A DNA stretch of 23,455 nucleotides, taken from positions 1-23,455 of IMG/VR virus record IMGVR_UViG_3300022591_000575. One strand, written 5' to 3'. Shown piece by piece: positions 2,969 through 23,455 of this stretch (the first letter of the stretch is position 1; every line of letters starts with the position of its first letter). The stretch is from a virus. The position numbers and the translations under genes are program-made. Below the pieces are notes generated by a model. The model ran no database searches and was not told the DNA's origin. It saw nothing but the letters and a program-made list of their open reading frames with translations.

Positions 2969-2986
2969 CTAGGCAAATGCGCCTAG
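2969..2986 (+). other. Short hairpin presenting a start codon in its loop
   Basis: CTAGGC (2969-2974) and GCCTAG (2981-2986) form a 6-bp stem around a six-base loop that contains the ATG (2977-2979) of the next gene. No convincing Shine-Dalgarno sequence precedes that ATG. The hairpin is seen directly; any effect on initiation is inference. Confidence 0.4.
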
Positions 2987-3480
2987 ACAAATATAGTAAT
3001 CCCATCTTTAACGAACACGATTTATTTGATGCCATTTATACTGGTTATCAATTTAATGTCGACGATACTATAATTGTCGAACGTACCGATGCTGTTAAGC
3101 AGTTAGAAGAACAAATTGGTTTTAAATTTGTTTCACCCTACGAAACTCACCCTGTAATACAAGACTACGATAAGGCATGCCAGCAAGTATGGTTCATGCC
3201 CAAAGACTACTGCCCAAACTTAGTAGAAATGTTGTATGGCATGTGTACTACCGAAGAACAAACTACCCGTGTAAGTGAAGAACTTGAAGCATTTATTGCT
3301 CACGGTATGATGGAACTGTTGTATTATCTTAAATACTTGGTAGATACATTAGAAGAAAATGAGATACTATGGGGTGTCGGAAGAGGATCAAGTGTAGCAA
3401 GTTATGTGCTATATTTGATTGGAGTTCATAAGATTGACAGTTTAGCCTATAATCTAGATTGGCGTGAATTCCTAAGATAA
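2977..3480 (+). CDS. Truncated DNA polymerase III alpha (DnaE)-like palm fragment
   Basis: A 167-aa protein. Its C-terminal third matches the stretch of bacterial Pol III alpha around the first palm motif: a helix with R-x-x-E-E-L-x-x-F-I-x-x-G (about 98-110), then GVGRGSSVASYVLYLIGVHK (133-152), IDSLAYNL and a terminal WREFLR. In DnaE the corresponding run is GPGRGSxxGSLVAYxxxIT-x-x-DPL...FERFL, immediately followed by the PDxDxDF motif carrying two catalytic aspartates. Here translation stops exactly where that motif should begin, so this protein cannot be a polymerase alone. The N-terminal 95 residues are not recognised. It may be a repurposed nucleotide- or DNA-binding domain. There is no strong Shine-Dalgarno sequence, and the start codon lies in a hairpin loop. 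Homology is fairly secure; function is unknown. Confidence 0.7.
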   Translation: MRLDKYSNPIFNEHDLFDAIYTGYQFNVDDTIIVERTDAVKQLEEQIGFKFVSPYETHPVIQDYDKACQQVWFMPKDYCPNLVEMLYGMCTTEEQTTRVSEELEAFIAHGMMELLYYLKYLVDTLEENEILWGVGRGSSVASYVLYLIGVHKIDSLAYNLDWREFLR

Positions 3481-7356: not shown

Positions 7357-8088
7357 ATGCAACTAACAGAAAGTTTACATGCTGGAGATCTTGAATACTT
7401 GGTTAAAAAAGTATTTGGTATCGATGCATTCAAAAGCAAAATAGGCGACGATGACCAAGTTGTAGTAGTGAGCTTTGAAGTCAAACAAGAAGATGCCGCT
7501 AAGGATCTTGAGAATTTTATAGAGATGGGTTATAGCTTTGTGCTCGATGCAGATTGTACTGCTGGTGAAGGCGATGACGGAAGCTATTTTGTATTTGTAG
7601 AACTAGAGCGTGGCAGACATGTTGCAGAACAGATATTAGAAATTATCGAAGGTGTAAAAAAGTTAGCTAACCTCGATGGTATGAGATTTAGGTATTTTAA
7701 AAACTTTAAAAGCCAAGAAGCTAATGTGGAAACTATTAACATAGCAGTTCCACAAGATAAAGAATCATATGAAGTTGCTACTAAAAGAAATTCGATGGAT
7801 AACTTTCAAGAATTCTTTAAAAATAGTTATGCTGACGAAATTAAATTATTAGATGAAAGTATTAGTTTTACTAGACCTTATAGCGGAACAGTAATATTTG
7901 ATATTTTAGACAGTGGCAATAAACAAGATGTATACGATAATGTAAAAGGTCCTATTATTTTAGAAAGCAAGGACATGGCTGAAGTTATGTTTTTAACTAA
8001 AGTAATCGGTAATTACAATATTACTAAAATTAAAGATACATTTATATTTGAAAGCAACGGCTGGGCTGTTGCACTAAAGAGGAAATAA
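7357..8088 (+). CDS. Unknown phage protein, possible virion component
   Basis: A 243-aa acidic alpha/beta protein starting at ATG 7357 after an AAGGA-type ribosome binding site. The N-terminus MQLTESLHAGDLEYLVKKVF has the same spacing (M-x-L-x-E-x-L-x-A) as the tag seen on several proteins further right. The middle contains a strand-helix pattern (VVVVSFEVKQEDAAKDLENF, then SYFVFVELERGRHVAEQILE) and a C-terminal domain ending IFESNGWAVALKRK. No catalytic motif, transmembrane segment or signal peptide is evident. It sits directly upstream of the endolysin, with only one base between stop and start, so it is very likely in the same late transcript. Function unknown. Confidence 0.6.
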   Translation: MQLTESLHAGDLEYLVKKVFGIDAFKSKIGDDDQVVVVSFEVKQEDAAKDLENFIEMGYSFVLDADCTAGEGDDGSYFVFVELERGRHVAEQILEIIEGVKKLANLDGMRFRYFKNFKSQEANVETINIAVPQDKESYEVATKRNSMDNFQEFFKNSYADEIKLLDESISFTRPYSGTVIFDILDSGNKQDVYDNVKGPIILESKDMAEVMFLTKVIGNYNITKIKDTFIFESNGWAVALKRK

Positions 8089-8089
8089 C

Positions 8090-8716
8090 ATGGCAGATTT
8101 TACATTCGATTTTTCACAAGAAAAATGCACAGCAATATTACAAAATAATCCGTATAGCGAACATTGGCACGAAGCACTATGCCAGATTTTGCCTGACTAC
8201 GATATTAACACACCAGAGCGTGTTGCGGCTTTCTTAGCTCAAACAATGCACGAAAGCGGCGGCTACAGAGCACTAACAGAAAACTTAAACTATAAAGCAG
8301 AAAGTTTATGCAAAGTATGGCCTCGTTATTTCAATGCAGGTAACGCTAACGAATATGCTCACAATCCAGAAAAGATTGCTAACAGAGCATACGCTAATCG
8401 TATGGGCAACGGTCCAGAAGAATCTGGCGACGGATTTAAATACTGTGGCAGAGGACTTATTCAATTGACAGGTAAACAAAACTATAGCAAATTTGCCGAA
8501 AGTATTGATACACCAGTAGATCAAATTCCTGAATTCTTAGGAACATTTGAAGGTGCTATTCAATCAGCTTGCTGGTTCTGGGAAACTAACAACTTGAATC
8601 AATATGCAGATTCGGGCGACATTTTAACTATGACTAAAAGAATTAACGGCGGCACTTTAGGACTAGAAGATCGTCAGAATCATTTCCAACACGCAATACA
8701 AATTCTAAAAGGATAA
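8090..8716 (+). CDS. Endolysin, GH19 chitinase-like glycoside hydrolase
   Basis: A 208-aa single-domain protein of the GH19/lysozyme-like fold used by many phages as a peptidoglycan hydrolase. Residues 47-58 (AAFLAQTMHESG and the next G) hold the catalytic glutamate E55 in HESGG. TENLNYKAESL (63-73) and GFKYCGRGLIQLTGKQNYSK (115-134) are family hallmarks of the substrate cleft. The C-terminal half (FEGAIQSACWFWETNNLNQY and the KRINGG motif) completes the fold. There is no signal peptide, so export depends on a holin, consistent with the holin-like gene downstream. The ribosome binding site AGAGGAAATAAC precedes ATG 8090. Together with the next three genes it forms a complete Gram-negative lysis cassette. 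Confidence 0.88.
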   Translation: MADFTFDFSQEKCTAILQNNPYSEHWHEALCQILPDYDINTPERVAAFLAQTMHESGGYRALTENLNYKAESLCKVWPRYFNAGNANEYAHNPEKIANRAYANRMGNGPEESGDGFKYCGRGLIQLTGKQNYSKFAESIDTPVDQIPEFLGTFEGAIQSACWFWETNNLNQYADSGDILTMTKRINGGTLGLEDRQNHFQHAIQILKG

Positions 8717-8719
8717 TGT

Positions 8720-9208
8720 ATGGATCAGATTCAGTGGGTGCTTAGTCTATTACCAGACGCTGTATTAAACTGGATTTACTGGGCCATCATTCTAGCAGGA
8801 CTTACAGGGCTATTTGCCGGATGGATCGGCAAATACATTCCATTTTATGGAAATTATGCCAGGTTCTTAAAACCGATAGGCATTGTATTATTAGTACTAG
8901 GCGTATGGTTACGTGGCGGCTACGATACTGAAATGCGTTGGAGAGCTAAAGTTGAAGAAGCGCAGGCTAAAGTAGTCAAGGCTGAACAAGCTAGTAAAGA
9001 ATTTAACAGCAAGTTAGATGAAGAGCGCAAGAAAAAAGCCAAAGTTCGAACAGAGTACATTACTACAGTTAAAGAGCGTATTGTTAAAGAAGCCCAAATA
9101 ATCGATGCTGAGTGTAAAGTTGCTCCTGAAGCTATAAAGGATCTTAACGATGCCGCTAAGAATCCATTGAAAAAAGGAACTGTAACTATTAGCGAGGTTT
9201 CAAAATGA
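8720..9208 (+). CDS. Inner-membrane spanin-like protein (i-spanin, Rz-like)
   Basis: A 162-aa protein with two predicted hydrophobic segments, about residues 15-35 (LNWIYWAIILAGLTGLFAGW) and 52-65 (PIGIVLLVLGVWLR), followed by a long charged helical stretch (about 72-125, rich in Glu, Lys and Ala: KVEEAQAKVVKAEQASKEFN) typical of an Rz periplasmic coiled coil. Classical Rz has one N-terminal membrane anchor; the extra segment here means a hairpin topology or a holin-like addition. The assignment rests mainly on the pairing with the next gene, an overlapping lipoprotein. i-spanin and o-spanin together fuse inner and outer membranes in the last step of Gram-negative lysis. AAAGGA lies upstream of ATG 8720. 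Confidence 0.72.
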   Translation: MDQIQWVLSLLPDAVLNWIYWAIILAGLTGLFAGWIGKYIPFYGNYARFLKPIGIVLLVLGVWLRGGYDTEMRWRAKVEEAQAKVVKAEQASKEFNSKLDEERKKKAKVRTEYITTVKERIVKEAQIIDAECKVAPEAIKDLNDAAKNPLKKGTVTISEVSK

Positions 9209-9465
9209 AGCATCTAATAATCGTAGGGCTAATTGCGTTAGCTGGGTGTACAAGTGTTCCAGTAGCAATGAAATTCCCAGAAGTTCCAAAAGATATGCTA
9301 GAAGCATGTCCTGATTTAAAGCTAGCACCCGAAACTACCAAGTTAAGCGAAGTATTGCCTGTTGTAGTAGACAATTATGGGCAATATTATACTTGTAAAG
9401 ACAACGTTGATAGCTGGATAGAATGGTACACTAACCAAAAGAAGATATTCGATAGTATCAAATAA
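9205..9465 (+). CDS. Outer-membrane lipoprotein spanin (o-spanin, Rz1-like)
   Basis: An 86-aa prolipoprotein. MKHLIIVGLIALAGC has a charged start, hydrophobic core and lipobox LAGC (12-15), with Cys15 the lipidated residue. The mature part includes FPEVPKDMLEACPDLKL, a Pro/Cys-containing pattern common in separate-gene o-spanins of T4-like and other phages, and a C-terminal WIEWYTNQKKIFDSI helix. Residue 16 is T and 17 is S, with no Asp at +2, consistent with outer-membrane sorting. The start ATG overlaps the i-spanin stop by ATGA. This is an overlapped, not embedded, spanin arrangement. Its presence implies a Gram-negative host. Confidence 0.85.
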   Translation: MKHLIIVGLIALAGCTSVPVAMKFPEVPKDMLEACPDLKLAPETTKLSEVLPVVVDNYGQYYTCKDNVDSWIEWYTNQKKIFDSIK

Positions 9466-9468
9466 ATA
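9461..9468 (+). promoter_or_regulatory. T4-late-like promoter core
   Basis: AATAAATA, with TAAATA at 9463-9468, overlaps the o-spanin stop codon and lies 30 bases before the holin-like start. It is one of four related elements at the head of late-type gene groups in the window. CAGGAG (9485-9490) is the ribosome binding site of the next gene. Confidence 0.4.
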
Positions 9469-9498
9469 CGTATATAACAGCCAACAGGAGCGAAAACT

Positions 9499-10110
9499 AT
9501 GGCAGAAGAGAAAGACGAAAAAGAAGGCGGAGCCGAATGGATGCAGAAATATTGGCGTCCAGCAATGGGTTGGATGTACATGATTATATGTCTTGCAGAC
9601 ATGTTAGTATTTCCAATATTATGGTCACTATTGCAAGCAATGATGCACATGCCTATCACACAATGGAATCCGCTGACACTACAAGGTGCAGGCTTATTCC
9701 ATATTGCAATGGGTGCAGTATTAGGTATTAGTGCGTTCGGTCGTACACAAGAAAAATTAGCAGGAACAGCGGCTAATCCAACATCAACACAAACTATCAG
9801 TACACAAAACATGACTGGTAACGTAGCTGGCGGATTCGGTAGCGGAGGAGCAAGTAATGGCGGATTCGGCGGCAACAACTCATCATTTGGCGGGGCTCCA
9901 GCATTTGGCGCACCTGCGACAGGATTCGGTTCCTCGACAGGGAGCTTCGGTTCTCCAGCATCAACAACAGGGTTCGGAAGCGCACCGCTTGGCGGGAACA
10001 GCGCAAGTAGCTTTGGCGGAGGCGGGTTTGGAAGCACACCTGCAACAACGCCAGCAGTAAATGCAAGCGGTAAGAAAGTTATTCCAACTTTTGACCAACC
10101 AGCAATATAA
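9499..10110 (+). CDS. Holin-like membrane protein with FG-repeat low-complexity tail
   Basis: A 203-aa protein. The first 90 residues resemble the 3TM holin group (gene-transfer-agent holin type): a charged N-terminus, WRPAMGWMYMIICLADMLVF (19-38), ILWSLLQAMM, the linker TQWNPLTLQGAGLFHIAMGA (55-74) and VLGISAFGRTQEK. Holins form inner-membrane lesions that release the endolysin and trigger lysis. From about 107 to 183 the protein is almost only Gly, Ser, Ala, Phe, Asn, Pro and Thr, with nine Phe-Gly pairs (113, 123, 130, 136, 143, 150, 159, 172 and 177) in contexts GGFGS, SFGGAP, GFGSS. This resembles nucleoporin FG repeats in composition, presumably by convergence. It ends GKKVIPTFDQPAI. 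This stretch is more GC-rich than its surroundings. Holin assignment is moderate; its place beside endolysin and spanins supports it. Confidence 0.7.
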   Translation: MAEEKDEKEGGAEWMQKYWRPAMGWMYMIICLADMLVFPILWSLLQAMMHMPITQWNPLTLQGAGLFHIAMGAVLGISAFGRTQEKLAGTAANPTSTQTISTQNMTGNVAGGFGSGGASNGGFGGNNSSFGGAPAFGAPATGFGSSTGSFGSPASTTGFGSAPLGGNSASSFGGGGFGSTPATTPAVNASGKKVIPTFDQPAI

Positions 10111-10119
10111 GGAAACATT

Positions 10120-10290
10120 ATGAAAAAACTATTAGCACTTTTAATCGTAGCAGTATTTGCATCAACAGCCATGGCGGCAGACAAAAAACCTGCTCCAGCT
10201 AAAAAAGAAGTTAAGCATCATAAAAAAGCAGAAGGTACTAAAGTAGAAGGCACAAAACCAGATACAGTGGCGCCAAAAAAGAAAAAGTAA
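10120..10290 (+). CDS. Small secreted Lys-rich protein (56 aa)
   Basis: A short ORF, ATG 10120 to TAA 10290, with a good ribosome binding site (AAGGAA, 10109-10114) right after the holin stop. MKKLLALLIVAVFASTAMA is a textbook Sec signal peptide with a signal peptidase I site A-M-A at 17-19, before ADKKPAPAKKEVKHHKK. The mature 37 residues are Lys/Pro/Ala-rich with two KxEGTK repeats and end PKKKK. It would be a small, strongly basic periplasmic protein. Its location at the end of the lysis cassette suggests an accessory lysis or envelope function, for example binding anionic cell-wall polymers, but this is speculative. The codon pattern and ribosome binding site make it a convincing gene despite its size. 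A terminator-like hairpin follows. Confidence 0.75.
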   Translation: MKKLLALLIVAVFASTAMAADKKPAPAKKEVKHHKKAEGTKVEGTKPDTVAPKKKK

Positions 10291-10299
10291 TTCAAATAC

Positions 10300-10328
10300 T
10301 TGACAGGCTCCACTTAAGATAGTATAAT
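10300..10328 (+). promoter_or_regulatory. Consensus sigma70 promoter for the dnaJ-def-clpA operon
   Basis: TTGACA (10300-10305), a 17-base spacer and TATAAT (10323-10328) form an exact consensus sigma70 promoter. The predicted start is near 10335. It overlaps the terminator hairpin of the preceding operon, with the -10 inside the hairpin's central part. Host RNA polymerase could use it without phage factors, which suggests early transcription. Confidence 0.85.
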
Positions 10329-14664: not shown

Positions 14665-15030
14665 ATGCGTATAAATGAACTATTAGAGGGCAAATACTTC
14701 GATGATATGAAGTTTATCAAACCTGTAGAAGGTGGTGGTAGAGAATTAAACTTCGATCTAGCAGAAGACTTAATACACTTCATGCACAACGATGATGATG
14801 TATATCGCCGCCATGTATTTCCTAGTTTAACTAAATGTCTTGATAAAAAAGGCGAAATAAGCAGTAAAGTATTTCAACCAGCTGTAGAAAGCAGTTATCA
14901 AATTTACGTTAAAAAATTCCCTATTCGTGAATTGCCAGATCATTTAGACGAAAAACTTTGCAATGATATTTGCAAAAAGATGTTAGAAGATACCAAAGAG
15001 CATATTTCTAACGGCAAGTACAAGGACTAA
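14665..15030 (+). CDS. Unknown phage protein with N-terminal LLE tag
   Basis: A 121-aa protein. I chose the ATG at 14665 over an in-frame TTG at 14653 because the resulting N-terminus, MRINELLEGKYFDD, matches the tag of other nearby proteins (M-x-I/L/M-x-E/Q/D-L-L/F-E-G/A). LLE followed by G at residues 6-9 fits the cleavage consensus of T4-type prohead protease gp21. The rest is an acidic, helical protein (FDLAEDLIHFMHNDDDVYRR, then LCNDICKKMLEDTKEHI). No domain is recognised. It is first in a group with the ligase-like and nucleotidylyltransferase genes, and 2 bases separate it from the next start. If the tag is real, it would be an internal head protein. Confidence 0.65.
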   Translation: MRINELLEGKYFDDMKFIKPVEGGGRELNFDLAEDLIHFMHNDDDVYRRHVFPSLTKCLDKKGEISSKVFQPAVESSYQIYVKKFPIRELPDHLDEKLCNDICKKMLEDTKEHISNGKYKD

Positions 15031-15032
15031 TC

Positions 15033-16277
15033 GTGCTGTTAAGAGAAATGTTCTATTATGAAGGTAAAGCTATTGCTGTTAATGATGACAGTATGGAAAA
15101 GTACGGCAGGCCTTTTAATCATCCGGAACATTTAGTTTTCTTTAAAGGTGTAAATGGTACTTTAGAAGCACTTAATCACTTTAAAGAAATTACTGACGAA
15201 AAAGCAGGACAAACTACAGTTCGACGCAAGTGGGATGGCAATCCTCAAGTATACTGGGGACGTGAAAAGAAAGGCGGGCCGTTAATACTTGCAGGTCACA
15301 ACCAATGGGGTCGAGGTGTTAAGAGCGATAGTCCAGAAGGTGTATACGACTTTATTGCAAATCAAAGTGGTAATCCAAAATCTCCCGAAGATCAACAAAA
15401 GCGTCAGCAGTTTGCTACTAACTTTAGCAATTTGTATCCATTGTTTGATGCCGCTACACCTAAAAACTTTGTTGGCTTTGTATATGCAGATGCATTGTTT
15501 GGAGTTGATCCTAGTTTAAATAAACGACTTACTCCACCTACTAAAGAATATCCAAAAGGTGTATGGGAGTTTAGTCCTAACCCGTTAAGCGACACAACAT
15601 ATCACGTGGATGCCGGTAGTGCATTAGGTCAGCGCATTAGCCAAACACAAGTAATGGTAGTAGGACATGCAACATTTCCATCGTTCGGTGCAGATGACCG
15701 TTCGCAAGTACCTAAAGATAATTTTGAAGAGTTTAATAAAACTCCCGGCCTTATTGTACAAGGTCCAATCTATACAGATGCGGCGCCTCAAGTGGATGTT
15801 AGTGCAGTAGACGAAATGATTGAATATGCACAAACACATGCCGGAGTAATAGATGGTTTCTTGAACAGTTTGCCTGATGCAGATAAGAATGGAATCTTTT
15901 ATCCTTTCTTTAATGACATGAGTAACAAACATGCAAATGCTCAACAAGACTTTAGTAGCATTACAGGCAGTACATTTGTATCTTGGATGCAGGCAAAGGG
16001 CAAGAGTCCTAAGAAAATACAACATATCATTGATATGACACAAGCACATCCTGGCGGATTAGATGCTATATTGTTTTTAATCAAAGGTATACGCAACATG
16101 AAAGATACTGTGGATGCCGCAATTAAACAGCAACCACGAAAAGAAATTTGGGATACGCACGGCGAAGGCCATGTACGTTATGCGCAAAAAGGTCATAAGT
16201 ATGGCAACATTAAAATTGTTCCTACAACATGGGCTCCTGGTAAAAAGCCAGTTACTCAACCGGAGGCACCGCAGTGA
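15033..16277 (+). CDS. KxDG nucleotidyltransferase (ATP-dependent ligase-like, DUF6267-type)
   Basis: A 414-aa protein with a GTG start at 15033 (AAGGA at 15022-15026). It begins MLLREMFYYEGKA, a variant of the shared N-terminal tag. RRKWDGNPQVYWGRE (64-78) carries the K-x-D-G motif I of the covalent nucleotidyltransferase superfamily (DNA/RNA ligases and capping enzymes), where Lys66 would take AMP. NQWGRGVKS (90-98) resembles motif Ia, and KNFVGFVYADALFG may correspond to motif III. I recall this type as DUF6267 in environmental T4-like phages, sometimes called RNA ligase. Motifs IV and V I cannot place confidently. Role in repair or modification of RNA or DNA is inferred. It overlaps the next gene (GTGA), linking it to another nucleotidyl-transfer enzyme. 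Confidence 0.7.
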   Translation: MLLREMFYYEGKAIAVNDDSMEKYGRPFNHPEHLVFFKGVNGTLEALNHFKEITDEKAGQTTVRRKWDGNPQVYWGREKKGGPLILAGHNQWGRGVKSDSPEGVYDFIANQSGNPKSPEDQQKRQQFATNFSNLYPLFDAATPKNFVGFVYADALFGVDPSLNKRLTPPTKEYPKGVWEFSPNPLSDTTYHVDAGSALGQRISQTQVMVVGHATFPSFGADDRSQVPKDNFEEFNKTPGLIVQGPIYTDAAPQVDVSAVDEMIEYAQTHAGVIDGFLNSLPDADKNGIFYPFFNDMSNKHANAQQDFSSITGSTFVSWMQAKGKSPKKIQHIIDMTQAHPGGLDAILFLIKGIRNMKDTVDAAIKQQPRKEIWDTHGEGHVRYAQKGHKYGNIKIVPTTWAPGKKPVTQPEAPQ

Positions 16278-17479
16278 AATTAAGACAGTTATTTGAGGCA
16301 CATCATAAAGCAGATGCGGCATTTTGTTTTGGAAGATTCAATCCTCCACATCAAGGTCACATGGAAGTGTGGAACGCTGTTAAACATGCAGGACGCCATT
16401 GGTTCATCGGAACTAATCCTGGTACTATTGGGCCTAATGATCCATTGCCATATGAGTTAAAAACCGCTTGGATGACTGCAATTGATCCTCAAATTAAAGG
16501 ACATATCTTAGGCGAACAAAGTGTTGTTACCTTAGCCGCTAAGATTTATCAACAAGTAGGTGATGGTGCAACTATTGCTTATGTAACAGATAGCCAAGAC
16601 TGGGCTTGGGCTGGAAAACTATTACATCAGTATAACGGCAAAGAAAGCAATCATGGTTATTTTAATTTTGCCAAGATTATTCACGTAGAAAGCCCCCGTG
16701 TAAGTAGTGCTACTGCTCTACGCACAGCCGCTCGTGCTGGTGATATGAATGCGTTTTATCAAGCCGCAGGTACCGATCCTAACTTAGTAGTAAATGGTAA
16801 ACACTACTACGATACAGTTGTTGATGCTGTAGGACAACATCCTGAAAAAGTTAAGAAAGTTAAGAAAGAAAAACCTGTAGCAGAACCATTAGCACAAGAA
16901 AGTTTAATGGGCTTTATGGCTAAGCCGACTAAAAAGAAAGTATCGGCCAGTACAGAAGAAATGCGAAAGTATTTTGAAAAAGAAAAATCTAAAGAACCTG
17001 ATAAAATGGAGCGCGGAGAAGGCAATAAAAAAGTTAAACAAGTATATACTAAGGCTGATGAGAATTCGATTAAATATGCTAATAAGGTATTAAGAGAAAT
17101 GCGAGCAAGAGATTTTGTACAAGAAGGTAAAATTACTAAACGTCATCCGCACCATGATGCCGCAAGCCAAGGTGTGAGTCGTAGCCGAGATATTGGAGGA
17201 TACGACCGTATCTATCATATGAATCGTTTAATGATGGCTATGGCCATGGCGGATGGTAAGGATACTAAAGCGGTAGACAGCCCGCAAGAAACATGGTCTG
17301 AAAAATTTAATACTCATCATCCTTATACGCAACAAGAAGACAACATGATTAGGGCCGCTTTCAATACTGTTCCCACTGATGGAAATCATATTAGTAAGTT
17401 TGGAAAAAGTGTCGAGCCCAACGATACACACAAAGTAAGTGCTGTTGCAAAATCTAAAAGAAACAAATACGGAATTTAA
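16274..17479 (+). CDS. HxGH nucleotidylyltransferase (NMNAT/cytidylyltransferase-like) with C-terminal phage module
   Basis: A 401-aa protein starting at GTG 16274 (GGAGG at 16262-16266). The N-terminus MKLRQLFEAHHKAD carries the shared tag, with LFE followed by A at 6-9. Residues 14-185 are a HUP-type nucleotidylyltransferase: FCFGRFNPPHQGHMEVW (17-33) with the HxGH ATP site, AYVTDSQDWAW (102-112), and VSSATALR (143-150), the ISSTxxR-type phosphate-binding motif. It would transfer NMP from an NTP to a phosphorylated substrate such as NMN; the substrate is uncertain. A Lys-rich linker (190-260) leads to DIGGYDRIYHMNRLMMAMAM...NTHHPYTQQEDNMI (306-359), a C-terminal module I recall on unrelated proteins of marine phages. 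LAQESLMGFM at 206-215 lies in the linker. Confidence 0.8.
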   Translation: MKLRQLFEAHHKADAAFCFGRFNPPHQGHMEVWNAVKHAGRHWFIGTNPGTIGPNDPLPYELKTAWMTAIDPQIKGHILGEQSVVTLAAKIYQQVGDGATIAYVTDSQDWAWAGKLLHQYNGKESNHGYFNFAKIIHVESPRVSSATALRTAARAGDMNAFYQAAGTDPNLVVNGKHYYDTVVDAVGQHPEKVKKVKKEKPVAEPLAQESLMGFMAKPTKKKVSASTEEMRKYFEKEKSKEPDKMERGEGNKKVKQVYTKADENSIKYANKVLREMRARDFVQEGKITKRHPHHDAASQGVSRSRDIGGYDRIYHMNRLMMAMAMADGKDTKAVDSPQETWSEKFNTHHPYTQQEDNMIRAAFNTVPTDGNHISKFGKSVEPNDTHKVSAVAKSKRNKYGI

Positions 17480-17480
17480 T

Positions 17481-17918
17481 ATGGACGAAAAATATCATCT
17501 AGCACTTAAAACAGCATTTGCTAGTGAATACGCCTTTGCATTAAAGGCACAGAACTTTCACTGGAATGTAGAAGGACCTCTGTTTCCTCAACTACACGCA
17601 TTGTTCGATACTATCTATACAGAAGTATATGGCAGTATCGACACGTTTGCTGAACAACTTCGTGCATTACAAATATATACTCCAGCAAGTCTAGTTAAAT
17701 TTAGTATGTTATCTAAAGTAGAAGATGAAAATAGTGTACCAGACTTTCACGGTATGTTAAGCGAGTTGTTAGAAGACAGCGAGCGTATGGCTAACATATT
17801 CCGTATTACATTTACTATGGCAGAACAAGCTGGCGATCATGGACTAAGTAACTTTTTAGCAGATCGCCAAGATGCTCATAAGAAACATAGCTGGATGCTA
17901 AGATCAAGTTTAAAATGA
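17481..17918 (+). CDS. dps: Dps/ferritin-like DNA-protection protein
   Basis: A 145-aa four-helix protein. I start at ATG 17481 (MDEKYHLAL), just after the upstream stop, rather than a longer in-frame extension to 17439 that would overlap the previous gene. NFHWNVEGPLFPQLHALFDT (25-44) is the Dps signature. The ferroxidase residues keep the exact spacing of E. coli Dps (His51, His63, Asp67, Asp78, Glu82): here His27, His39, Asp43, Asp54 and Glu58. A mini-ferritin would oxidise and store iron and remove peroxide. It lacks the Lys-rich N-terminal tail that lets E. coli Dps bind DNA. It lies between the nucleotidylyltransferase and a small unknown gene, sharing ATGA with the latter. Phage Dps is uncommon but reported. 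Confidence 0.88.
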   Translation: MDEKYHLALKTAFASEYAFALKAQNFHWNVEGPLFPQLHALFDTIYTEVYGSIDTFAEQLRALQIYTPASLVKFSMLSKVEDENSVPDFHGMLSELLEDSERMANIFRITFTMAEQAGDHGLSNFLADRQDAHKKHSWMLRSSLK

Positions 17919-18175
17919 AACAATATAAGATCACTACACAAGATATAAATCCATCTTCAGACGAAGATTGTTATCTTGCGCCAGATGATCCTATACACCA
18001 GTTAAAAGCAGTTAGTATGATGGGCGGATTAGGCAGTGCAGAAGCCCTGGCTAACTATAACAATTTACAACTGCCACAAATACAAGGCAGCGACAAAGGT
18101 CGTATCGCCAGAGAACAAAATATCAAACCAGGAACCGATGCTTGGTTTAAACATTGGTTTGGGAGAACCGTATGA
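17915..18175 (+). CDS. Small conserved phage protein, unknown function
   Basis: An 86-aa protein beginning at the ATG of an ATGA overlap with dps and ending in another ATGA overlap with the next gene, so the three are translationally linked. It reads MKQYKITTQDINPSSDEDCY, LAPDDPIHQLKAVSMMGGLG, then GSDKGRIAREQNIKPGTDAW and FKHWFGRTV. The DDPIHQLK and IKPGTDAWFKHWFG parts look familiar from environmental T4-like phages but have no assigned function. There is no tag of the M-x-L-x-E-L-L-E type, no signal peptide and no catalytic motif. It could be a small virion or regulatory protein. Confidence 0.6.
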   Translation: MKQYKITTQDINPSSDEDCYLAPDDPIHQLKAVSMMGGLGSAEALANYNNLQLPQIQGSDKGRIAREQNIKPGTDAWFKHWFGRTV

Positions 18176-18933
18176 AAATGCAAGATTTATTAGAAGGTAT
18201 CGACTATACTCAGCCCGGTCCTATAACTAAAGATTCAGCTGGACAAAAATTAGAATATGGTATTCCTGTAAATGCCAAGGGTGATTTTATTCCTCCTAAT
18301 CAAAATTTACCGGATGACGAATATATGCAACAGTTAAATGCATATAAAACATGGAAGGCAGACTATTTAAGACGCTGGCCTAATGCTACACAGCAACCAG
18401 ATGGATCAATGCAAGGTATAAAGCCCGGACTAGCGGCTCCTAAGTTCCAAGAAGGTTACAACGACTATCATAATAATCGTACAGGATTTAGTCGTCACCG
18501 TAGAGAAGAAGATGAAGCTAACCTAATGTACATCTATGATGACGGTGCCGGGAGACTCAAACAACGTATGGTTTCAAACCATGAAGAGCATTCAGCACAC
18601 CAGCAAGGCTTTAGACAAACTCCTGAAGCCGCACTTAAAGTACACAATATTATTCGTAGCAAATTTGATCCTAAGAAATTCGTACAAAATCAAGGCGGAA
18701 AGTGGGTTGTAGTACACCCATATGGGCAGAAAGATGTGTCAGAATCATCTTCAGTAGGCAGTACAAGCGCAGGAAATATAGCTAGTGTAGAAGGCGGAGC
18801 TGCCGCATATAGCAAAGGGCCTGTAAAAAGCGTGAATGCATTGGATCAAGATGAAGTTAGTTTGTTCGGCGGGCCGATGGAAGACATTAAAACTAAGCCA
18901 AGTAAGAAAGTAGCTATCATCAAAAGACGCTAA
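18172..18933 (+). CDS. Unknown phage protein with N-terminal LLE tag
   Basis: A 253-aa protein. An ATG at 18154 is in frame, but I choose ATG 18172: it makes a 4-base ATGA overlap, has GGGAGA at 18161-18166 as ribosome binding site, and gives MKMQDLLEGIDYTQ, with LLE followed by G at 6-9 exactly as in the gene at 14665. The body is polar: PPNQNLPDDEYMQQLNAYKT, then EEDEANLMYIYDDGAGRLKQ, then a region (AALKVHNIIRSKFDPKKFVQ) before KWVVVHPYGQKDV. The tail is Ser/Gly-rich and ends KKVAIIKRR. No known domain. If the tag is a prohead-targeting signal, this would be a packaged protein. The stop overlaps the TAAATA element before the next gene. Confidence 0.65.
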   Translation: MKMQDLLEGIDYTQPGPITKDSAGQKLEYGIPVNAKGDFIPPNQNLPDDEYMQQLNAYKTWKADYLRRWPNATQQPDGSMQGIKPGLAAPKFQEGYNDYHNNRTGFSRHRREEDEANLMYIYDDGAGRLKQRMVSNHEEHSAHQQGFRQTPEAALKVHNIIRSKFDPKKFVQNQGGKWVVVHPYGQKDVSESSSVGSTSAGNIASVEGGAAAYSKGPVKSVNALDQDEVSLFGGPMEDIKTKPSKKVAIIKRR

Positions 18934-18936
18934 ATA
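18929..18936 (+). promoter_or_regulatory. T4-late-like promoter core
   Basis: GCTAAATA, with TAAATA at 18931-18936, overlaps the stop codon of the previous gene and lies 23 bases before ATG 18960. The next gene has ACGGAG (18947-18952) as ribosome binding site. It is the fourth such element in the window and is identical in its eight bases to the one at 6728. Confidence 0.4.
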
Positions 18937-18959
18937 TATAAAGATAACGGAGTATACTC

Positions 18960-20573
18960 ATGCCAGCAGAATTAGATCAAATGACACCAGCAACAGGGTC
19001 AGAACCAACAGATACACCAGCACCTGAAATGGGCGGTGAAGTTGTAGGCGTACACAACGGCGAAACAGACCGTGAAGGTGCTATGGCCAAAGCTGATTTG
19101 TACAAATTAGCTAATTATTCACACAAGCTATTCCAACAAATTCAAGACGAAGATCAATTAGAAGGTTGGGTACAAGCTAAGATTACTAAAGCCGCTGATT
19201 ATATCGCCAGCGTCTATCATTATTTAGAGTACGAAATGAAGTTCAGCGAGTACGGACATCATTTAGACAACAGCGATACATTAAGCGAAGGACAAAAAAT
19301 GCGACTAAAAGAAATGTTATCTGAAGCTAAAGATAAAATGAAAGATTTGAAAAAATCACAAGCTGAAAAAATGAAGGGCAAACATGAGCACAAAGTTGAC
19401 GAAGGTATGGTCGGCGGTGGTCAAAAGCCTTGTGTAGAATGCGGCGGTACAGGTATGGTGTTTGAAGAGCCTAAGCCAGTTCCAGCACATGTTCAAAGCA
19501 AAGTTGACAAGTATAAGACATTAGTTAAAGCTACTAAAGCCGCTCACAAGCGTTTAGATGCTAATCACAATGGTATTCCTGATGCTGAAGAAACAGTTGA
19601 TGAAGAAACAAGTTCAACTGGTGGAACTATTAGTCGTCCAAAGCCAGGTGTAACACGTCATACACACAATCCAGATCGTTTCAGCGATGAGCCACATGCT
19701 GAGCCAGCAAGTAAAGTAAAAGCACGTTCAGCTGGCGAGAAAGCCGGTGAGAAAGCTCAAGACAAAGCTGATGAGAAAGAATCTAAAGCATGGGGCAAAG
19801 CTAATCCAGGAAAACAAACTATCGTTAAAGGTGGCAAGAAAGTAGATCCTAATGCTCCTAAAGAAAAGAAAGAAAAAGAAGTTGACGAAACGTATGGCGT
19901 TGGAGTTTACGAAGCTAAGAAGGGCAAGAAAGCCGGTAAAGATTATGACGGCGATGGCAAAGTAGAAAGCGACAAAGACGAAGTATGGGGTTCACGTGCT
20001 AAGGCTGCCGCTAAAGCAGGTAAGCCATTCAAAGAAGGTGTAGGTGCGGAGGCTGATGCGATAGCACGTCAACTTGATGCGTTAATGAAACAATATCAAG
20101 AGGCAAAAGCCAGAGGTGATCAAAAAGCAATGACTCAATTGGCCGCTGATTACCAAAAAACTAAATCTTTGGCAGGCACTGCACCGGTCCAAGAAGGCAA
20201 ACCAAGTGCAGGACTAAGCAAGGCTAAAAAATCTGCTGTAGTTAAAAAAGCAAAAGCCGGTGGTGACATTGGTAAGCCAGGTAAGGGATTTGATAAATTA
20301 GCTAAAAAAGCAGGCGGTGGCGAAAAAGGCGAGAAGATTGCCGCTACCGCTATGTGGAAGAACATGAAAGAAACTGTTGCTTACATGGCAGAAAAGAAAG
20401 CCGCTACAAAAGATTTGCCAGGCAATCAAGAAAAGATTGATGCAGATCATGATGGTAAGATTGAAAAATCAGACTTAGCCGCATTACGTGCTGGTAAGAA
20501 AGAAAAAGAAACTGTAAAAGAGTCAGCAGATTTCAATCGTATGAAAGAGTTGATGCAACGTTTGAACGGTTAA
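18960..20573 (+). CDS. Lys/Glu-rich phage protein with EF-hand-like loops and a single CxxCxGxG knuckle
   Basis: A 537-aa, highly charged protein of low complexity. Residues 40-135 are a helical domain (AMAKADLYKLANYSHKLFQQ, then WVQAKITKAADYIASVYHYL). C158 and C161 in CVECGGTGMVFEE form one CxxCxGxG unit of the DnaJ zinc-finger type, too little for a full finger alone. Three Asp-rich loops match the EF-hand/excalibur calcium pattern: DANHNGIPDAEE (200-211), DYDGDGKVESDKDE (328-341) and DADHDGKIEKSD (494-505). Much of the rest is Lys/Ala/Gly/Glu repeats (for example GEKAGEKAQDKADEK) and probably disordered. LSE followed by G or A occurs at 108-111 and 120-123. I recall similar mosaic proteins in marine T4-like phages. 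A virion-internal, DNA- or ion-binding role is a guess. Confidence 0.7.
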   Translation: MPAELDQMTPATGSEPTDTPAPEMGGEVVGVHNGETDREGAMAKADLYKLANYSHKLFQQIQDEDQLEGWVQAKITKAADYIASVYHYLEYEMKFSEYGHHLDNSDTLSEGQKMRLKEMLSEAKDKMKDLKKSQAEKMKGKHEHKVDEGMVGGGQKPCVECGGTGMVFEEPKPVPAHVQSKVDKYKTLVKATKAAHKRLDANHNGIPDAEETVDEETSSTGGTISRPKPGVTRHTHNPDRFSDEPHAEPASKVKARSAGEKAGEKAQDKADEKESKAWGKANPGKQTIVKGGKKVDPNAPKEKKEKEVDETYGVGVYEAKKGKKAGKDYDGDGKVESDKDEVWGSRAKAAAKAGKPFKEGVGAEADAIARQLDALMKQYQEAKARGDQKAMTQLAADYQKTKSLAGTAPVQEGKPSAGLSKAKKSAVVKKAKAGGDIGKPGKGFDKLAKKAGGGEKGEKIAATAMWKNMKETVAYMAEKKAATKDLPGNQEKIDADHDGKIEKSDLAALRAGKKEKETVKESADFNRMKELMQRLNG

Positions 20574-20576
20574 TAT

Positions 20577-21938
20577 ATGGACATGAAGCGTATACTACAG
20601 GCGATGGATGGTGTTGCTACTAAACCTGTAGTAGGCGCTAATGACATGGCTAAATTTTTATCTATTGTAGATAAGAATGCTAGCGTTCAACTATTGCAAG
20701 AAGGTAATCCCCATAAAGTGTCATTGCCAGTACAAATGGCAATGCAACACTATCAAAAAGAAGAATGTACTCCACAGCCTCAAGTAGCTCGAGAAAGCAT
20801 TGTTCGCAAATACTTTGACGAAGCTGAACAAGCTATCGAAGAAGAACAAGTCAAAAAAAGAAACTTTTATAAACAATACGCTCAGACTATTGCTGAACGT
20901 GTATTGATGAAAGAAGATGCTGTATCCGGCGGTGTCCAAGCTGTTAAAAAATTAGCAGGTGCGGCGGCCTCTCATCCTAAGTCAACAGGTATAACCGCAG
21001 GTGGTGGTGCTATACACGCGGCAGCTGGCAATGTAGATCAGGATGCCGGTGATTGGTGGCACGAACGAATCATTCCAGAAATTCCATATAGTAGATTAGA
21101 GCTAGCTATTGATTTAGGTGTAGTTGGTGCAGGTGCAGTAGCTGGTGCAATCGGTGGGCCAGCTGGTGAAGGTGCGGCACTGGCCGCTAATGCTACTAGA
21201 GTTGAAAGACTTGCTAGAATTATTTCAAAAGGTTTATCCTTAGTGGGTGCAGATGTTAAGCGTAGTGGGGCAAAATTAATTCCTCCTATTAGAGAATGGC
21301 TTAAAGCATTTGGCAGAACCGCAATAACTACTACTGCAATCCATACACTTGTAGATTTACTTAATGATGCAGTTAGAAACCTAGACGAAAGAAGTACTAC
21401 TGAAAAACAAGCACGTACAATGGCCGTGGCCGCGCATAATCCTGCGTTTGCTAAGAAAGTAGGCATTGATCAAAAAGTTGCTAAAGAATTTAATCAAAAA
21501 GATAAAGGCACAGCTTTATTAAGCAATGCTATGAAAGGCAAGCGAAAGAAAGTTAAAGAGCTTGATGGACATAGTATGGGATTTAAACCGCAAGGCCCTG
21601 GTTTACAAAGTAATGCTCCAGACGGCGGCCATTTAAACCTAAGCGAACTAAGCACAGAAAAATTAGCCCAATATAAAAAAGCCGCGTATGCTGATGCTAA
21701 GAAAGCAGATGCCGAAGGCGACTATGAACGTGGCAATAAACGTTTCAAAGGTATTAATAAAGCTACTGTTAAACAATTTGACAATGATTTGAAAAAACAT
21801 AATCAGAGTCCTATCAAAGAAGCTAACGCTAAAAAACGAACACTAAAGAATTCAAACCCATGCTGGAAAGGTTACCATCCAGTTGGAACTAAAAAGAAAG
21901 GCGGACGCACAGTGCCTAACTGTGTACCAAAGGAATAA
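20577..21938 (+). CDS. Phage protein with glycine-zipper hydrophobic core, possible ejection or membrane-active protein
   Basis: A 453-aa protein. The N-terminal part (MDMKRILQAMDGVATKP, ANDMAKFLSIVD, then LLQEGNPHKVSLPVQMAM) is a module I recall from several environmental T4-like phage proteins; LQE followed by G occurs at 40-43. Residues 78-112 form a charged helix. A hydrophobic, Gly/Ala-patterned stretch at about 178-204 (IDLGVVGAGAVAGAIGGPAG) is a glycine zipper, followed by an amphipathic helix (RVERLARIISKGLSLVG) and another hydrophobic helix near 245-264. The C-terminus (NPCWKGYHPVGTKKKGGRTV, with Cys429 and Cys449) is a recurrent phage end motif. These traits would fit a protein that inserts in a membrane, perhaps during genome ejection; this is inference. 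The start is ATG 20577, and ATG 20583 is possible. Confidence 0.65.
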   Translation: MDMKRILQAMDGVATKPVVGANDMAKFLSIVDKNASVQLLQEGNPHKVSLPVQMAMQHYQKEECTPQPQVARESIVRKYFDEAEQAIEEEQVKKRNFYKQYAQTIAERVLMKEDAVSGGVQAVKKLAGAAASHPKSTGITAGGGAIHAAAGNVDQDAGDWWHERIIPEIPYSRLELAIDLGVVGAGAVAGAIGGPAGEGAALAANATRVERLARIISKGLSLVGADVKRSGAKLIPPIREWLKAFGRTAITTTAIHTLVDLLNDAVRNLDERSTTEKQARTMAVAAHNPAFAKKVGIDQKVAKEFNQKDKGTALLSNAMKGKRKKVKELDGHSMGFKPQGPGLQSNAPDGGHLNLSELSTEKLAQYKKAAYADAKKADAEGDYERGNKRFKGINKATVKQFDNDLKKHNQSPIKEANAKKRTLKNSNPCWKGYHPVGTKKKGGRTVPNCVPKE

Positions 21939-21939
21939 C

Positions 21940-23455
21940 ATGAACTTAAGAGATTTAATTAATCGCATTGAAACAATCGAACTTAGCGAAGGTCTGAGAT
22001 TAAAGGATATTGAGGCACAAGTTGCTAGCGAGCCTAATGAGCAGAAACGTGCTCAGACATTAATGACTCTTGCACAAACTAACAAGTTGCCAGGATTATA
22101 TGATCCTGTCAGCGGATACTTTGTCAGTGCAGATCCAGATATGAATCGCGGAGAAGGCGGTACAAGTGAACCTAAGCCACGCATTAGTGCAACTGGAACC
22201 GAAGAGATGGATGCGTTGTTAGCCAAACGTGGATTAGTCCCTCCTAAAGCAAACACAAGTACAGTATTCCGCAAACTAAATCCTTTTAGTTCTAGTAATA
22301 AAGATTACGATAGCGGCGTTCAAGGTGGTAGCCAATCAGCTATTGCTCGTCAGAATAAAGAAGATGAAGAATTAAAACAATTAGCAGATTTAATTCCTAA
22401 GTATAAAGCTCTTAAAGATAAGTTAGCATCTTTAAATGGGGTAAACACAGATGCACGTACCGGACAAGGTATTGTTCCAGCAGATCAACCATTAGCAGAA
22501 TCATTAATGGAAAGTTTCAGTTATTTGTTCGACGATGTAACTGGTGCTGGAAGAGCGGCTGGCGAAATGCTACCTAAGATATGGAATAAATTGCCATCAG
22601 TAGTACGTGGTGGCGAGAAACAAGCTGGCAAAGATTTTGATATATTAGATCGATTACCAAACCAACTTAGCACAGAATTAAAAACACCTCCCCGTCCAGA
22701 TATTACAGATGTTGAATGGCGCACAGTTCCAGACAATATGAAAGGTGGAGTTGCATCTTGGTTAAAAGCTAATCCTGGAAAAAGTATGGCTGCGGCCATG
22801 CTGGCTTTGGCGGCGGGTAGTCAAATGCGTGGTGGAAGTAAAAATGCCAATCCTGCTCCTGCTATTCCTGGCGATGCTAAAACATCAGATGCAACTACTG
22901 GACAAGCTGGTGTTACAGCACCTGGACAAGCTGGTGTTACAGCACCTGGACAAGCTGGTGTTACAGCACCTACTGCACCGACCACTTATCAAATTAAACC
23001 CGGTGATAATTTAAGCTCTATTGCTAAACGTAATAATGTCAGCGTTGCTGAATTGATGGCGGCTAATCCTAGCATTACAAATCCTAACAAGATTACAGCT
23101 GGTGCATCATTAACAATTCCGTCAGCAAGTGGCAAACCAACATATGACCAAGGTGTAGGTTCTAAACCAGATGTAAAACCTGCCGATTCATCATCAGATC
23201 AAGCAGAGAGAGACGATGCTGCCAAGGTCGATGCTGATGAAGCTAAAAAGAAAGCTGATATCGAAGCTACACAAAAAGAAATCGATGACACTAAACAACA
23301 GCTTGCCGCTTTAATTGTTGATTTAGAAAAATCTGAAGATGAAGATAATATTCGTCAGGTAAAAGATTTAGAATCACAATTAGATGATCTTGAAGAAATT
23401 AAAAATTCACAAGCTGGCAAAACTGCCGCAATGATTGATGTGGATAAACAGATTG
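21940..23455 (+). CDS. LysM-domain phage protein, 3' partial
   Basis: Open from ATG 21940 (AGGAA at 21931-21935) to the right edge, 505 codons so far. The N-terminus MNLRDLINRIETIELSEGLR is a looser version of the shared tag, with LSE followed by G at 15-18. Residues 20-200 are polar and unrecognised. A short hydrophobic stretch lies near 282-292 (MAAAMLALAAG). A low-complexity linker has three exact copies of GQAGVTAP. Residues 350-394 are a LysM domain (YQIKPGDNLSSIAKRNNVSV, AANPSI, GASLTIP), which binds peptidoglycan GlcNAc units. From about 430 on there is a long coiled coil (ADEAKKKADIEATQKEIDDT). It could be a packaged or tail-associated protein contacting the cell wall at entry. The end of the gene is outside the window. 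Confidence 0.8.
   Translation, partial: MNLRDLINRIETIELSEGLRLKDIEAQVASEPNEQKRAQTLMTLAQTNKLPGLYDPVSGYFVSADPDMNRGEGGTSEPKPRISATGTEEMDALLAKRGLVPPKANTSTVFRKLNPFSSSNKDYDSGVQGGSQSAIARQNKEDEELKQLADLIPKYKALKDKLASLNGVNTDARTGQGIVPADQPLAESLMESFSYLFDDVTGAGRAAGEMLPKIWNKLPSVVRGGEKQAGKDFDILDRLPNQLSTELKTPPRPDITDVEWRTVPDNMKGGVASWLKANPGKSMAAAMLALAAGSQMRGGSKNANPAPAIPGDAKTSDATTGQAGVTAPGQAGVTAPGQAGVTAPTAPTTYQIKPGDNLSSIAKRNNVSVAELMAANPSITNPNKITAGASLTIPSASGKPTYDQGVGSKPDVKPADSSSDQAERDDAAKVDADEAKKKADIEATQKEIDDTKQQLAALIVDLEKSEDEDNIRQVKDLESQLDDLEEIKNSQAGKTAAMIDVDKQI
22900..22971 (+). repeat. Three exact 24-bp tandem repeats in the LysM gene
   Basis: Three identical 24-base units (22900-22923, 22924-22947, 22948-22971), each encoding GQAGVTAP, make a flexible linker just before the LysM domain. 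Perfect identity including third positions points to recent slippage-type expansion, so copy number may vary between related phages. Confidence 0.95.

Follow-up and report, generated by a model that had tools for sequence, protein, structure and literature searches.

The 23,455-base viral sequence IMGVR_UViG_3300022591_000575 of IMG/VR (hereafter the window) encodes, from position 14665 on, a cassette of proteins that share a short N-terminal tag on otherwise unrelated bodies, and these probably serve as internal head proteins in a jumbo phage of the T4 superfamily, addressed by T4-type capsid-targeting tags and cleaved in the manner of gp21. Computation recovered the tag and the way it is conserved, protease sites of a matching kind in the scaffold, genes for the protease and the capsid in relatives and a conserved pair of enzyme genes; packaging, cleavage and injection are what we infer from these for the phage of the window. 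Under the mechanism proposed here, the five proteins starting at 14665 (A), 15033 (B), 16274 (C), 18172 (D) and 21940 (F) would begin with a T4-type capsid-targeting sequence, and the one starting at 20577 (E) would be directed by a longer propeptide. The hydrophobic residues of the tag (I/L/M at position 3, L at 6 and F/L at 7, around an acidic residue or Gln at position 5) would bind the prohead core, and a gp21-type prohead protease would cut following the pattern (L/I)-x-E↓(G/A/S/N), where the arrow marks the scissile bond. Cutting would free the mature protein inside the head, and from there it could accompany the DNA into the cell. The cargo would include an RNA-ligase-like DUF6267 protein (B) and an NMNAT/cytidylyltransferase-like enzyme (C), a pair kept across Kyanoviridae and the lineage of the window.

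None of 50,697 phage records matches the window at the nucleotide level, and its relatives, recognizable at the protein level, are contigs reaching 356 kb. Ahead of the cassette it encodes a clamp loader, PhoH, a GroES-like protein, DnaJ, peptide deformylase, a ClpA-like ATPase and lysis genes. Peptidase_S77, the family of T4 gp21, and the Gp23 capsid gene are both present in 8 of 18 related contigs, the larger ones, which places the lineage in the T4 superfamily. The corresponding domains, PF03420 and PF07068, are found in the larger related contigs with the same cassette; the window itself is a fragment.

Three proteins of the window (14665, 16274 and 18172) begin with the strict motif M-x-(I/L/M)-x-(E/Q/D)-L-(L/F)-E-(G/A), which was formulated on the window itself, so that 3 of about 30 proteins is not a test by itself. 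At the internal positions of six related contigs the same motif occurs 0 times in 323,444 (0/55713, 0/84700, 0/84795, 0/38678, 0/38935 and 0/20623). All the N-termini from which an earlier sequence-only reading had proposed a shared tag are present where it placed them: MRINELLEG (14665), MLLREMFYYEG (15033), MKLRQLFEA (16274), MKMQDLLEG (18172), MDMKRILQA (20577), MNLRDLINRIETIELSEG (21940) and MQLTESLHA (7357), with GTG starts at 15033 and 16274 and ATG starts at the other five. Looser patterns generalised from T4 tags and assessed by Fisher's test are concentrated in the syntenic cassette of related contigs (p=1.4e-4 in G002 and 2.5e-5 in G017; more weakly, 0.001-0.011 in G004, 0.003-0.18 in G007 and 0.013-0.017 in G014). 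An equal frequency in unrelated cytoplasmic proteins, which that reading had named as the outcome that would speak against it, was not seen. Short amphipathic N-termini might be alike by accident, the best ones having been picked by the reader; the tag is merely 8-10 residues long, and loose versions occur elsewhere in the proteomes. However, because the strict motif has zero internal background, chance is untenable, and given also the enrichment in the cassette and the conservation over two body classes described below, we give it almost no credence; the shared segment on non-homologous bodies is real. The LLEG of protein A is encoded by CTA TTA GAG GGC and that of protein D by TTA TTA GAA GGT, which places the likeness at the protein level and rules out a shared DNA-level start element or a recent copy of a 5' end.

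Gene order and tags are both kept in the relatives. The listed distinct N-termini of family A orthologues keep variants of M-R-[IM]-x-[ED]-L-[LI]-E, and the tags of protein F orthologues end in LSEG, LNEG or LDEG. The locus of family B is occupied by two body classes, of about 405 and 617 aa, with M-[LFR]-L-R-E-[LM]-F common to all 28 forms; some relatives have, in place of the 405-aa DUF6267-like protein, one of 617 aa that shares its MLLRELF start. In the 617-aa class, whose linkers vary both in length and in sequence, all 12 of 12 forms have Glu immediately ahead of the conserved GGNIW and L/I at P3; in the 405-aa class, 15 of the 16 forms have Glu at residue 10 and the remaining one has Asp. 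Of 24 orthologue N-termini of family C, all have L3 and R4 and 21 have E8; residues 9-18 vary strongly, and the distance to the catalytic motif spans 18 to 32. In the AlphaFold (AF2) model of protein B, residues 1-28 have a predicted local distance difference test score (pLDDT) below 50, placing the tag outside the confident fold. A removable address label would be expected to look like this, with a conserved element inside a poorly ordered N-terminus and a drifting linker behind it. Hydrophobic spacing followed by an (L/I)-x-E site is seen in families A, C, D and F, in most of B and in the LQE↓G of E. For protein E, MDMKRILQA had been taken for the tag; the best site is instead VQLLQE↓G at residue 42, next to the conserved body, and this junction (hydrophobic-x-E-G/A) is kept in most orthologues despite N-terminal indels. 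In the cassette, the tag is carried by A, B, C, D and F, and by E by way of the longer propeptide; the Dps protein and the products of 17915 and 18960 have none.

The gp22-type scaffold has sites of the kind in which the cassette tags end. In G002 this scaffold, which adjoins the protease, has 13 (L/I/V/M)-x-E↓(G/A/S) sites where shuffled sequences would have 2.6 (p=0.0005); in Gp23 the sites LLE↓G-18 and L-x-E↓S-41 are kept. The orthologues of E and F in the same contig have sites above expectation; ClpA, DnaJ, PhoH and Dps are about at or below it. These sites bear on the alternative that the shared N-termini are uncut scaffold-docking or assembly peptides, kept on structural proteins of the head or tail. 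Targeting and processing are separable in T4, where Asp at position 10 stops cutting and not targeting (PMC9026906); Asp10 occurs in 1 of 16 family B forms, and pelagiphage cytidyltransferases are tagged without the Glu. On the other hand, hardly any variation is seen at the Glu, which usually precedes a small residue, just where the linker is free to vary, and the same site is 5-fold overrepresented in the scaffold, so we consider uncut peptides improbable.

Virion proteomes of other phages provide a further view of tagging. The record of Pseudomonas phage PA5oct marks the proteins seen by electrospray ionization tandem mass spectrometry (ESI-MS/MS), and the regular expression LxE(G/A/S) in residues 3-14 was fixed before these data were read. 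It matches 9 of the 93 detected proteins and 4 of the 295 others (p=5.6e-4, or about 0.003 when corrected for five patterns); MKINDIITEG and MKIKDILVES are examples. A pattern derived from T4, regex T, shows no enrichment in PA5oct (p=0.44) and zero virion matches in the cyanophage S-CREM2, and any L/I-x-E near the N-terminus gives p=0.24 in PA5oct. As a single control, the cytidyltransferase-like EST35_0307 of PA5oct (MSILTSILNN) is untagged and has no mass-spectrometry note. Among the 52 virion proteins of S-CREM2 (Table 3 of PMC10665884), five match a T4 IPIII-like pattern, compared with 0 of 134 other proteins of at least 60 aa (p=0.0015); the five include an S-adenosylmethionine (SAM) hydrolase (MKDFDSFLEE), a kinase (MKRFDAFLTE) and a cytidylyltransferase detected by mass spectrometry (MKNFSSFLTE↓A). 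A separate observation concerns S-CREM2 gp12 (7704-10313), a Cas9/Csn1-like nuclease detected in virions, which has the T4-like RFASFMAE↓A at residues 18-25; it is possible that this nuclease is packaged and injected.

In protein B the KxDG motif I (K66 W67 D68 G69) is invariant in 14 aligned sequences, and the best VIA-align match of its model is the RNA ligase of N. gruberi (Z 7.3, 183 residues, 4.1 A), the rows shown being ligases and one capping enzyme; a Foldseek search with the model gave no significant fold match (best E 0.5), and a ligase fold is suggestive only. Direct tblastn of protein B matched no cultured phage, and the link runs through Pfam DUF6267 and synteny. Protein C has GRFNPPHQGH, which contains the HxGH nucleotidylyltransferase motif, with PF01467 at 21.3 bits against a cut-off of 21 and a PHROG cytidyltransferase match at E 1.4e-14. 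DUF6267 has full-length matches in S-SZBM1, HTVC008M and Melnitz, where it adjoins the cytidyltransferase or stands 1-2 genes before it, in the same B-C order as in the window. It lies within three genes of the cytidyltransferase in 90 of 98 IMG/VR contigs that have both, and the pair is side by side, as in the window, in several Kyanoviridae too. Cyanophage-type cytidyltransferases start with MRFxxF[IL]xE↓A, the S-SCSM1 NMNAT, an annotated virion protein within a run of such proteins, starts with MKSFLQFLKE↓A, and pelagiphage DUF6267 proteins have a short variable start ending in L-x-E↓DKNTHLEH.

One might also suppose that the tag serves another partner in the infected cell, such as the chaperone set encoded upstream, or that it regulates the enzymes, the head not being involved. 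The cassette is indeed directly downstream of the DnaJ, peptide deformylase and ClpA genes, and N-terminal recognition signals for Clp proteases exist. However, the same tag type marks virion proteins in S-CREM2 and PA5oct, the untagged EST35_0307 lacks a detection note, and the tagged pairs of Melnitz and HTVC008M adjoin DNA replication genes and have no Clp gene among their listed neighbors, making such a partner very unlikely.

Taken together, the protease and capsid genes of relatives, the scaffold sites, the constraint on the tags and the tagged homologous enzymes in virions favor, in part, the claim of the sequence-only reading that the cassette encodes tagged internal virion proteins. 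Several points weigh against cleaved and injected head proteins. The protease gene is absent from the window, which is a fragment, and some members of family B, protein B itself among them, have Tyr at P3. The cut site is missing from one partner of the enzyme pair per group, as in the pelagiphage cytidyltransferases (MKTLKELLRK) and the cyanophage DUF6267 proteins (MAKNTHLEH). Unlike the T4 sequence, the lineage tag has the consensus M-x-[LIM]-x-[EDQ]-L-[FL]-(x0-3)-E and is usually two residues shorter (core E-L-L-E versus E-F-I-A-E). Two of the five regular expressions tried in PA5oct reached p<0.05, and a profile of the cassette tags does not separate its virion proteins from the others (area under the curve 0.49), because most virion proteins are untagged and PA5oct tags differ. 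One of four patterns was significant in S-CREM2, and its exact form was widened after matches had been seen. The virion content of the lineage is predicted here from genes; detection in virions, by others, concerns the cytidylyltransferase homologues of S-CREM2 and S-SCSM1, and the authors of those proteomes note that carry-over of abundant proteins is not excludable (PMC9602691, PMC10665884).

The principle of capsid-targeting sequences is already known from T4; what differs here is the lineage-specific form of the tag and its enzyme cargo. The annotation of T4 IPII gives MKTYQEFIAE as a signal peptide of 10 residues, and the leader of IPIII is identical to it (PMC9026906). Ip1-3 are injected restriction inhibitors with the leader alone in common (PMC12373910), and a review suggests that a short capsid-targeting sequence lets T4-like phages package diverse proteins (PMC9026906). 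The tags of the window resemble those of IPI-IPIII and Alt in being N-terminal and about 10 residues long, with hydrophobic spacing, Glu before the cut and non-homologous bodies, and the gp21-type protease and Gp23 capsid are likewise shared, here in relatives. The cargo differs, being small restriction inhibitors and an ADP-ribosyltransferase in T4 and, in this lineage, a gene cassette with ligase-like and NMNAT-like enzymes. Closer in this respect are the NMNAT/cytidylyltransferase, kinase and SAM hydrolase of S-SCSM1 and S-CREM2 virions, with a related cytidylyltransferase family and T4-like tags; unlike here, their authors name no packaging signal and leave carry-over open (PMC9602691, PMC10665884). 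The inner-body and ejection proteins of phiKZ-like and SPN3US-like phages are likewise head proteins with propeptides at the N-terminus, which a prohead protease cuts after x-x-E, but several of these exceed 100 residues and the protease motif is AXE in SPN3US and SXE in phiKZ (PMC5694885); a segment in 201phi2-1 resembles part of protein E. Of fifteen papers found to mention capsid-targeting sequences, none has a title on cyanophages or these enzymes and, as far as the literature looked at shows, the tag is a new account of how cyanophage virion enzymes are packaged.

By analogy, a T4-like label may account for enzymes repeatedly detected in cyanobacterial virus particles, offering a possible mechanism where the authors left cargo and carry-over undecided. 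What was a T4 curiosity would become a general, sequence-readable packaging code for T4-superfamily phages, predicting which uncharacterised jumbo phage proteins reach the host at time zero and making the injected set directly testable. A role of B and C in NAD or RNA repair is a speculation from knowledge of their families. It is a rather doubtful extension that phages of the T4 superfamily, cyanophages and uncultured jumbo phages alike, use such tags to load a conserved two-enzyme kit, made up of the RNA-ligase-like DUF6267 protein and the NMNAT-like enzyme, together with assorted lineage-specific cargo, and inject them for RNA/NAD repair before phage gene expression, against damage by host defence.

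Table 1. Cassette proteins and related features of the window (↓, predicted cut)
Coordinates	Strand	Product	Tag or site	Basis
7357..8088	+	Protein G, virion structural protein	N-terminal LTE↓S, codons 7357-7371	PHROG, phrog_13138 E 1.2e-24
14665..15030	+	Protein A, 121 aa, no known family	MRINELLE↓G, codons 14665-14688	orthologue N-termini
15033..16277	+	Protein B, DUF6267, RNA-ligase-like, KWDG	MLLREMFYYE↓G, codons 15033-15062	Pfam DUF6267 E 1.1e-9
16274..17479	+	Protein C, CTP_transf_like/NMNAT-like, HxGH (HQGH)	MKLRQLFE↓A, codons 16274-16297	PF01467, PHROG
17099..17125	+	Tag-like internal segment of protein C	MRARDFVQE↓G (VQE↓G, residue 284)	sequence
17481..17918	+	Dps/ferritin-like protein, true start ATG 17481	untagged	Pfam Ferritin E 3.2e-21
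17915..18175	+	86-aa cassette protein	untagged	orthologues MKQYRITTQDLN
18172..18933	+	Protein D, 253 aa	MKMQDLLE↓G, codons 18172-18195	orthologues MKMHELDEG, MKIKELLEG, MKMHELDES
18960..20573	+	Protein X, 537 aa	no N-terminal tag	internal site count
20577..21938	+	Protein E, 453 aa	propeptide-like stretch up to LLQE↓G residue 42, codons 20577-20702	PHROG virion structural matches
21940..23455	+	Protein F, LysM, cut by window end	MNLRDLINRIETIELSE↓G, codons 21940-21990	LysM E 7.8e-14

Orthologues of the Dps protein start with MDEKYHLALK. The internal LxE↓(G/A/S) sites of protein X number 6 versus 2.1 expected (p=0.019), and it may be a core- or scaffold-like protein cut inside. In protein G the LxE sites number 5 versus 1.05 expected (p=0.0025); it had been counted among the looser tags, and its N-terminus differs from the cassette motif and instead shows a related pattern, [IL]-[TNS]-E-[SNTA]-L, at the very N-terminus. 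The view that protein G is a non-substrate, taken from a G002 homologue seemingly without the motif, was withdrawn, as orthologues show [IL]xE. Proteins near tail genes at 26559 in G002, 25471 in G007 and 22800 in G014 start with MKKITES or MKKMINET, another N-terminus of the I-x-E↓(S/T) kind.

The C-terminal domain that follows MRARDFVQE↓G in protein C stands alone in G009 as MRAYEFLTE↓G. A second cluster, at 326.7-335.4 kb (326700-335400) of contig G014, has MRxx[ED]F starts in 6 of 12 genes versus 1 of 439 elsewhere (p=6e-10, the pattern having been chosen after the cluster had been seen), and the tagged-protein design therefore recurs. Its N-termini are MRAKEFLILEA (peptidase-like), MRAKEFLPET, MRAKDFILFE, MRFTEFKLVLKE (hydrolase-like), MRATEFITEG and MRAQEF (HAD-like), and the bodies look like M23 peptidase, GDSL-type hydrolase and HAD phosphatase.

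The C-terminal modules of protein E are common to other phages. Residues 273-318 (window 21393-21530) resemble short proteins of the phiKZ-like phages 201phi2-1 and PhiPA3, with up to 70% identity over 40 aa, and a DUF3008 protein of S-SCSM1, annotated as a virion protein, looks similar to the same segment. The C-terminal module NPCWKGYHPVGTKKKGGRTVPNCVPKE (window 21850-21938) recurs in cyanophages S-CREM1 and B23, the S-CREM1 copy lying inside a large protein that adjoins a NadR-like gene. Elsewhere in the window, a separate gene at 2977-3480 encodes a short DNA polymerase fragment of 167 aa (phrog_11127).

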